DNA of 37,284 nucleotides, taken from positions 1-37,284 of the forward strand of contig ONYP01000048.1 in the NCBI GenBank assembly GCA_900322135.1, given 5' to 3'. Positions within the stretch are counted from its first letter, which is position 1; every line of letters starts with the position of its first letter. A program made the translations under genes and the position numbers. This DNA is from an uncultured Prevotellaceae bacterium (GTDB taxonomy: Bacteria; Bacteroidota; Bacteroidia; Bacteroidales; Muribaculaceae). Positions 6,093-33,927 of this stretch are shown here, piece by piece. The notes beneath the pieces were generated by a model, which was not told the origin of the DNA, did no database searches, and saw only the letters and a program-made list of their open reading frames with translations.

Positions 6093-6119
6093 ATCTTTAA
6101 CCTCTAAACTCTAACCTTT

Positions 6120-6241
6120 AACCTGCGAGCAACGCGAGCCTCCCAGCGGATGCCTCTCTAAACTCTAAACCCTAAACTCTAACCTGCGAGCAACGCGAGC
6201 CTCCCAGCGGATGCCTCTCTAAACTCTAAACCCTAAACTCT
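6120..6241. repeat. Perfect 61-bp tandem duplication with palindrome and heptamers
   Basis: Bases 6120-6180 and 6181-6241 are identical. Each 61-bp unit holds the imperfect palindrome GCGAGCAACGCGAGC, a short spacer and several CTAAACT/CTAAACC heptamers. A one-mismatch copy of the palindrome lies at 6001-6016. The stretch 5980-6310 contains no gene; it holds these repeats and two hairpins. Confidence 0.85.
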
Positions 6242-6245
6242 AAAC

Positions 6246-6847: not shown

Positions 6848-6860
6848 TGTCGTTAATAAT

Positions 6861-20459: not shown

Positions 20460-23400
20460 ATGAAAAAATTTAACGAGTATAACGGGTTTAACCTGTCAGA
20501 TATCAACAAGGAAGTCCTGCAACAGTGGGACAAGGAAGATGTTTTTGGCCGTAGCATCAGCGAGCGCGAGGGTGCTCCTTCATATGTTTTTTATGAGGGT
20601 CCTCCCAGCGCCAACGGCATGCCGGGCATCCACCATGTGATGGCCAGGACCATCAAGGACATCTTCTGCCGCTACAAGACGATGCAGGGTTACCAGGTAC
20701 ACCGCAAGGCCGGTTGGGACACCCACGGCCTGCCCGTGGAACTGGGCGTGGAGAAGGCCCTGGGCATCACCAAGGAGGATATCGGCAAGAAAATCTCGGT
20801 CGATGAGTACAACGCCACCTGCCGCAAGGAGGTGATGAAATACACCCGCGAGCACCATCCAGCCTTACTCACCCGCTGCCGGTACCGGGCTGAGCAGCCA
20901 CGAGCTGAACCTGCCGGGCTGCTACCGCGATGTGAAGGACCAGACGGTTACCGCACAGTTCACCGTGCTGAGCGGCGACGAGCATCCTGTCATCAAGAGA
21001 ATCAGCGAGGCCGCCGACGAGGGCTTCAACGATGCCTATGTGCTGGCATGGACGACCACACCCTGGACCCTGCCGAGCAACACCGCCCTGTGTGTGGGCA
21101 ACAAGATTGACTATGTCGCTGTCGAGAGTTTTAACCCCTACAGCGGCAAGCCCGCCATCTACCTGCTCGCCGAGGCACGCGTCGATGCCTACTTCAAGGC
21201 CGACGGCAAGGACCAGCCGATGGAGTACAACGCCGGCGACAAGGTGGTGCCCTGGAAGGTCATCGCCTCGTTCAAGGGCCAGGACCTGCTCGAGATGCGC
21301 TACGCCCAACTGTTCCCCTGGGTGAAGCCCGTGGACAAGGTCGACGGCAAGGTCGTGGGCAACGACAACGGTTTCCGTGTCATCCCCGGTGACTATGTGA
21401 CCACCGAGGACGGTACCGGTATCGTGCACATCGCTCCCACCTTCGGCGCCGACGATGCCCGCGTGGCCAAGGCTGCCGGCATACCCGCCCTGTACATGAT
21501 CATCAAGAAACTGGAGACCCGCCCCATGGTGGACCTCACAGGTAAATATTACAAGATTGAGGACCTGGACGAGGAGTTCGCAAAGAACTTCGTCAATGTA
21601 GACCTCTATCAGGAATATGCCGGCCGCTGGGTCAAGAACGCCTATGACCCGCAGTACACCGTGGGAGGCAAGTTTGACGAGGCCGCCGCTGCCAAGGCCG
21701 AGGACCTCAACATCTACATCTGCATCCGCATGAAGCAGGAAGGCACCGCCTTCAAGATGGAGAAGCACACCCACAACTATCCCCACTGCTGGCGCACCGA
21801 CAAGCCCGTGCTTTACTACCCGCTCGACAGCTGGTTCATCCGCGACACGGCATGCCGTGACCGCATGATTGAACTCAACCACACCATCAACTGGAAGCCC
21901 GAACACACGGGTACCGGACGATTTGGCAAGTGGCTGGAGAACCTCAACGACTGGAACCTGAGCCGCAGCCGCTACTGGGGCACACCGCTGCCCATCTGGC
22001 GCAACGAGGACGGTGAGGAGAAGTGCATCGGCAGCATCGAGGAACTCTACAACGAGATCGAGAAGGCCGTGGCTGCCGGCGTGATGAAGAGCAACCCCTA
22101 CAAGGACAAGGGCTTCGTTCCCGGCGACTACAGCGAGGAGAACTACAACAAGATTGACATCCACCGCCCCTATGTTGACGACATCATCCTGCTGAGCGAC
22201 ACGGGCAAGCCCATGAAGCGTGAGCTGGACCTCATCGATGTGTGGTTCGACAGCGGTGCCATGCCCTATGCCCAGCTGCACTACCCGTTCGAGAACAAGG
22301 AGGCTGTGGACAACAACGGTTTCTTCCCCGCCGACTTCATTGCCGAGGGTGTGGACCAGACGCGCGGTTGGTTCTTCACGCTGCATGCCATCGCCACGAT
22401 GGTGTTTGACAGCGTGGCCTATAAGAATGTCATCAGCAACGGTCTGGTGCTCGACAAGGTGGGCGCCAAGATGAGCAAGCGACTGGGCAACGCCGTTGAC
22501 CCGTTCAAGGCCATCGAGGCCTACGGCAGCGACCCCCTGCGCTGGTACATGATCAGCAACTCGTCACCTTGGGACAACCTCAAGTTTGACGAGGCTGGCG
22601 TGATTGAGGTCGCCCGCAAGTTCTTCGGCACCCTCTACAACACCTACTCGTTCTTTGCACTGTATGCCAATGTGGATGGCTTCGACCCCGAGGCTACGCA
22701 GGTGCCCCTGGCCGAGCGTCCCGAGATTGACCGCTGGATCATCTCGCTGCTCAACTCGCTCATCGCCGAGGTGCAGGCCGACCTCGAGGACTATGAGCCC
22801 ACCAAGGCCGCACGCGCCATCAGCACCTTTGTGGGGGACCACCTGAGCAACTGGTATGTGCGTCTGAACCGCAAGCGTTTCTGGGGCGGAGAGATGACTC
22901 AGGACAAGCTGGCTGCCTACCAGACGCTGTACCAGTGCCTGACCACCGTGGCCCTGCTCATGGCTCCCGTATCCCCCTTCTACAGCGACCGCCTGTACCG
23001 TGACCTGACCCACAGCGAGAATTCCGTCCACCTGGCCAACTTCCCCAAGAGCGACGCCAGCGTTATCGACAAGCAGCTCGAGAAACGCATGCAGGCCGCA
23101 CAGGATGTCACCTCGATGGTACTGTCACTGCGCCGCAAGCAGAACCTCAAGGTGCGCCAGCCGCTGCAGGCCATCATGGTTCCCGTGCTCGACGACAACC
23201 AGCGCAACGATGTCGAAGCCGTTGCCGACCTCATCCGCAACGAGGTCAATGTTAAGGAAATCAAGCTCGTGGGCAATGATGCAGGCATCCTCGTCAAGCG
23301 CGTGAAACCCGATTTCAAGAAACTGGGACCGAAGTACGGCAAAATCATGAAGGCCCTTGCCGCACGCATCGCCGGTATGACGCAGCCCGAAATCGCACAG

Positions 23401-23817
23401 TTCGAGAAGGACGGCATGTTTGCTGTTGACATCGACGGCCAGCAGGCACAAATCGAACTTGCCGATGTCGAAATCATCAGCGAGGACATCCCCGGCTGGC
23501 TCGTCGCCAACGAGGGCAACCTGACCGTCGCACTCGACATCACAGTGACCGATGAGTTGAGACTCGAGGGTATCGCACGCGAACTGGTGAACCGCATCCA
23601 GAATCTGCGCAAGAGCAAGGACTTTGACATCACCGACAAAATCTCTGTCACCATCGCTCCCGACGAGCGCACCGACGAGGCCGTCAAGGCCTTTGGCGAC
23701 TATATCGCCCATCAGGTGCTCGCCACCAGCATTACAGTGGCTCCTGTCGACAGTGAGTCGGCCGACGAACTCGACATGGACGGCTGGACGCTGCCCGTCA
23801 AGGTCGAGAAAGTGTAA
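20460..23817 (+). pseudogene. ileS: Isoleucine--tRNA ligase interrupted by an apparent 137-bp deletion and frameshift
   Basis: The N-terminal part (20460-20852, 131 codons) carries the class I HIGH-type motif in PPSANGMPGIHHVMA and DTHGLPVE, ending KYTRE. After one extra base the reading resumes in the next frame at 20854 with TIQPYSPAAGTGLSSHELN and runs 987 codons to 23817, with the editing domain, the KMSKR loop near 22468, and a full C-terminus. In IleRS relatives about 46 residues (the WEDLTRKMGYWVDM to LLYKGY segment) lie between these two parts; their loss minus one base equals 137 bp. The first frame continues with unrelated residues to 21110. Translation as it stands would not give active enzyme. 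The downstream part could start at ATG 20932. The cause could be real mutation, a second functional ileS elsewhere, or an assembly error. Confidence 0.9.
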
Positions 23818-33814: not shown

Positions 33815-33927
33815 ACCTCTAAACTGCGAGCGCAGCGAGCATCAACGCGGAGCTTCTCTAAACTCTAAACTCTAACCTCTAAACTGCGAGCAACGCGAGC
33901 ATATAACCTGCGAGCAACGCGAGCATA
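33815..33927. repeat. Heptamer and palindrome repeats between PepSY-like genes
   Basis: Three palindrome units are seen: GCGAGCGCAGCGAGC at 33826-33840, and GCGAGCAACGCGAGC at 33886-33900 and 33910-33924, separated by runs of CTAAACT/CTAACCT heptamers. They are the same families as at 6120-6241. Confidence 0.8.

Follow-up and report, generated by a model that had tools for sequence, protein, structure and literature searches.

An ileS gene split by a missing 137 bp in a draft Muribaculaceae genome, most likely through an assembly or consensus error

According to the abstract of PMC11017572, many apparent pseudogenes arise from assembly. For the synthetase IleRS, part of the text of PMC10485003 reports the G/AXHH motif only in IleRS2 and links it to mupirocin hyper-resistance. 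The locus described here touches on both subjects: an ileS gene that carries GIHH (20625-20636), a non-canonical form of the class I HIGH motif with G/A-X-H-H in place of HXGH, is interrupted in a draft genome.

The window, meaning the whole stretch of DNA analysed (37,284 bp), is an entire contig (C98) of a draft Muribaculaceae genome of 3,094,031 bases in 145 contigs, which is estimated to be 82.55% complete and 2.08% contaminated. The gene is the ordinary housekeeping ileS of a Sodaliphilus-like Muribaculaceae, and its broken state most likely reflects an error in the draft sequence rather than biology. Among the best 80 of 591 named IleRS loci, the nearest records are metagenome-assembled Muribaculaceae or Bacteroidales, many of them ruminant-derived, and two carry the name Candidatus Sodaliphilus; these records suggest that the window genome belongs to a rumen or gut relative of Sodaliphilus.

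The split ileS gene and the missing 137 bp

On the forward strand of the window, ileS is split over two frames, 20460-20852 and 20854-23817. The ATG lies at 20460 and the first frame runs for 131 codons to 20852, ending in KYTRE; this 5' part matches positions 3-126 of the TIGR00392 profile with 165.7 bits. Similarity to the IleRS family picks up in a different frame at 20854 (TIQPYS), and this frame is open until the stop at 23815-23817. The 3' part (20853-23817, read from 20854) contains KMSKR at 22468-22482 and matches profile positions 175-860 with 754.7 bits, which by itself exceeds the curated cut-off of 621.4 bits. The core segments of the profile are not all found in a single frame: positions 127-174 are absent and the frame changes.

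The ileS locus was searched for with blastn in the window genome and 40 relatives, 24 of them from the same genus. By blastn coordinates, the window falls a net 137 bp short of every one of the 18 same-genus loci in which both flanks are present (L010-L027); L028, which is without the 5' part, lies outside this count. The same excess is given by blastn coordinates for G016 and G021. In the remaining four same-genus genomes, only a later part of ileS (G008) or no match (G003, G014, G019) is found. The earlier note, which had read from the window two IleRS parts meeting at KYTRE and TIQPYS with a frame shift and a loss of 137 bp, or about 46 residues, is borne out by these comparisons. It had also taken 20853 for an extra base; this base is in fact where the right flank of the relatives begins in the alignment, and the deletion edge falls at 20852/20853.

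The multiple alignment consists of six relatives, the other 12 loci (minus strand) having been dropped from it. In these six, neither edge of the missing piece has a base in common with the window. Judged from the letters of relatives rather than those of the window's own lineage, the joint appears blunt; it contains no N run and is collinear with relatives on both sides. The exact joint pattern occurs only in the window genome among 101 genomes of the genus. A match with two mismatches in G048 was discarded, as its letters differ and the ileS of G048 is full length elsewhere. When the missing segment was sought elsewhere in the window assembly, only its two flanks matched.

Repeat-mediated loss was considered and rejected, as no repeat that would explain a false join was found at the edges of the missing piece in a relative (L013, genome G024). 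In the one direct repeat found at this locus (10 nt, 90%), one copy lies at the right edge and its partner 20 nt into the missing piece; with that partner inside, the repeat does not bracket the piece. Two weak inverted pairs (16 nt, 81%; 11 nt, 91%) do bracket the piece, more than 60 nt from its edges. Folded as single-stranded DNA, this stretch does better than shuffled versions of it, none of 200 of which folds as well (z -2.45). Such folding could ease a copying jump, and the edges are not placed by it.

The missing segment is strongly conserved. A protein alignment of 78 rows comprises 77 full-length named loci and the G024 protein (probably the record of L030, so that one row may count twice); the segment is free of gaps in every row, with 24 invariant columns out of 47 compared to 396 out of 1164 in the whole protein. 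Relatives lacking the segment in frame, which the earlier note had named as grounds for giving up the deletion, do not occur among these 78 rows. Among the named loci (best 80 of 591), 77 are open in full, in one frame of 1090 codons or more; of the other three, L059 and L105 are cut by a contig end and L073 has a frame change elsewhere. A protein without this segment should not work as an IleRS.

The remainder of the gene is well preserved. The dN/dS of the 3' part is 0.080-0.121 against nine relatives, compared to a mean of 0.094 (range 0.058-0.166) in the 36 pairs of relatives. The window is changed at 8 of 809 positions of the 3' part that are invariant in the nine relatives (1-14 per relative), and at 0 of 113 such positions of the 5' part (0-2 per relative). 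By these measures, the rest of ileS is under ordinary purifying selection with no decay. This agrees with the earlier view of an intact remainder under selection, with GIHH and KMSKR present; it also means that the lesion is either very recent or absent from the cells.

A survey of 101 genomes of the genus finds ileS full length and in one frame in 78, cut by contig ends in nine, without an IleRS-level match in nine and altered inside a contig in five; the 87 genomes above the IleRS cut-off agree with these classes. The five altered copies are that of the window genome (G000), a 2-bp loss with frame shift in G066 (L122), a 26-bp tandem duplication with a 15-bp gap in G098 (L121), a run of 759 N in G021, which may stand for masked or unknown sequence, and a 15-bp tandem duplication with a 75-bp gap in G020 (L124), where the frame is kept. 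Among genomes with an uncut copy, the gene is altered in 5 of 36 with completeness below 90% and in 0 of 47 with completeness of 90% or more and contamination no higher than 5% (Fisher p 0.013); leaving out G021 and G020, the figures are 3 of 34 and 0 of 47. Broken markers can slightly depress the completeness estimate itself.

Further interrupted genes in the assembly

Comparison with relatives shows that the assembly contains at least four further deletion-interrupted genes besides ileS. The metG gene is interrupted within contig C103 at about 15295 (L007, L247), where positions 2-305 and 308-529 of the MetRS model lie in different frames; there is a 5-bp gap against all six aligned relatives. 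MetRS is found in one frame without a stop in 21 of 24 other genomes; of the other three, G014 has one stop, G030 has only part of MetRS and G008 has none.

A TrpB-like gene (C101, about 9009; L211) is 1 nt shorter than in all seven relatives compared, each of which has it in one frame. A SusD-like gene (C102, about 1667; L212) has a net 64 bp fewer than all 13 other genomes with both flanks; this gap is upheld in four of four aligned sequences, including one at 98% identity, and its edge has three shared bases. A CotH-like gene (C47, about 14970; L151) is 121 bp shorter than three of three aligned homologues, and the same spacing is seen in six of six homologues at 44-79% protein identity, which are homologues rather than proven orthologues.

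With G007 (L249, L265), identity is about 98% for the TrpB-like and SusD-like genes and about 90% for ileS. This contrast perhaps reflects recent exchange between species.

Frame changes were sought with a codon-usage scan of 938,954 bases of the window genome and 840,000 bases of G017, which gave 37 candidates (ileS included) and 25 candidates, respectively. The metG stretch was scanned and is absent from the 37; it was met by chance while other matches were being checked, so the scan misses real cases. Five more candidates of the window genome were picked by eye, and three (C47, C101 and C102) were borne out against relatives; the others are on C72 and C87. Five G017 candidates were also picked by eye; 0 of their 10 fragments matched a Pfam family.

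When 624 proteins of G017 were compared with the window genome, each genome being represented by a sample, 220 had matches: 94 that stay in one frame across 85% or more, one multi-frame (ileS), eight at ends and 117 weak or partial. The reverse comparison gave 96, 1, 1 and 126 in the same four classes. Since ileS alone is multi-frame among 95 orthologues, the lesions are scattered and errors are not dense.

Within the window, a second lesion was considered at 6848-6853, in the region separating proS from an FKBP gene, and was set aside because the difference is intergenic. The window also holds an intergenic tandem array at 6094-6243 (period 61, 2.5 copies, 94% matches); units resembling it occur in short form near 33856-33927 and in G007.

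Origin of the interruption

The absence of the 137 bp is very probably an assembly or consensus error. Such an error would have dropped the segment from the draft, with the living population presumably carrying an intact ileS; the lesion would then not be in the cells, and ileS and the other deletion lesions would share a technical cause. An error is the preferred reading since deletions also break at least four other genes of the same draft, including the essential metG. With five genes interrupted in this way by losses of 1 to 137 bp, and two essential synthetases among them, errors are the better explanation. The earlier note had offered a recent event or an assembly error, and it is the latter half that gains from these further breaks. 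A viable cell is not expected without both IleRS and MetRS. The lack of decay in the rest of ileS, the lack of another IleRS in the assembly and the restriction of altered ileS copies in the genus to genomes less than 90% complete also count for an error. On the other hand, the joint is clean and blunt in collinear surroundings, without an N run, and there is no edge repeat to explain a false join; ileS is the only multi-frame gene among the orthologues shared with G017, and the same scan gave 25 candidates in G017 against 37 here. Among 71 contig termini, overlaps of 99 bases are found in two pairs and of 77 bases in one; this hints at the assembler's k, without explaining the blunt joint.

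The blunt joint in its correct, collinear context would fit a real but rare deletion molecule that became the consensus, whether it came from a small share of unfit cells or arose as a chimera in the library. The 99-base overlaps suggest short-read graph assembly, in which case some reads should carry the joint. However, the same would have to recur for metG and the other genes, and this origin is unlikely. That the gene works as it is, with its two pieces made separately or the joint bridged by a reading trick, is barely credible: both parts are under purifying selection, but the missing codons are absent from the DNA and hence beyond any reading trick, and about half of the columns of the ever-present segment are invariant. 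A real and fixed deletion, in which an unseen second IleRS in the unassembled part of the genome has replaced the cell's own enzyme, is very improbable. The assembly is incomplete and seven small sampled contigs are N throughout, which leaves room for such a gene; against this stand the undecayed remainder of ileS and the interruption of metG, which would need a second rescue. If the loss were fixed, the metG and other interruptions would also have to be real or separately explained.

The search for a second IleRS is also unfavourable to a fixed loss. A TIGR00392 profile search of the window genome gives nine stretches; two are the parts of the interrupted ileS, and the remainder belong to ValRS (C73), LeuRS (C105), MetRS (C103) and CysRS (C87). 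No second IleRS was found in the assembly at its 82.55% completeness, with the seven sampled contigs all N. Among the matches listed, 0 of the 78 genomes of the genus with full-length ileS have a second match above the cut-off. A stretch of G064 (C1:43071-45476; L233) matches the ileS model across most of its length and was rejected as an IleRS; it scores 343 bits, below the cut-off, and by eye its start reads like the ValRS of the window genome. The acquired types MupA and MupB (NF000257, NF000258; cut-off 1900 bits) are not matched by the interrupted gene, the two parts of which reach at most 128 and 554.3 bits.

GIHH is found in 77 of the 80 named relative loci (best 80 of 591); of the three without a counted GIHH, two are truncated ahead of the motif, and for the third the script picked out a different stretch. 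The GIHH-bearing ileS therefore looks like the ordinary enzyme of the group. Since the interrupted gene is itself of the GIHH type, rescue by a separate resistant type loses its point; the mupirocin-resistant second IleRS suggested by the earlier note, of which none was found in the incomplete assembly, is not upheld.

An assembly or consensus error thus remains the preferred explanation. Where a draft genome seems to have lost an essential gene, other genes of the same assembly may be broken as well, and the loss should be read with caution; here the broken genes number at least five in total, ileS included, with two synthetases among them. A real loss would mean that an essential enzyme had been replaced, a rare event that has no support here.

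Enzyme type and likeness to described systems

The window gene resembles the type 2 IleRS of PMC10485003 in carrying GIHH, and differs from it in being without the 137 bp. The best solved-structure matches of an intact relative are IleRS chains of 1032 residues, one of which shows GVHH in the alignment. Placed by motif rather than by tree, the enzyme of this bacterial group would be IleRS2. The word start 'bacteroid' is absent from the main text of PMC10485003, and a literature search for Bacteroidetes IleRS and mupirocin found no paper.

The abstract of PMC11017572 describes frameshifts and internal stops, and no deletions as long as the 137 bp of the window. In other respects the locus is like the assembly-made pseudogenes of that abstract: an essential, otherwise conserved gene is broken, and other interrupted genes (metG and the TrpB-like, SusD-like and CotH-like genes) are found in the same draft assembly.
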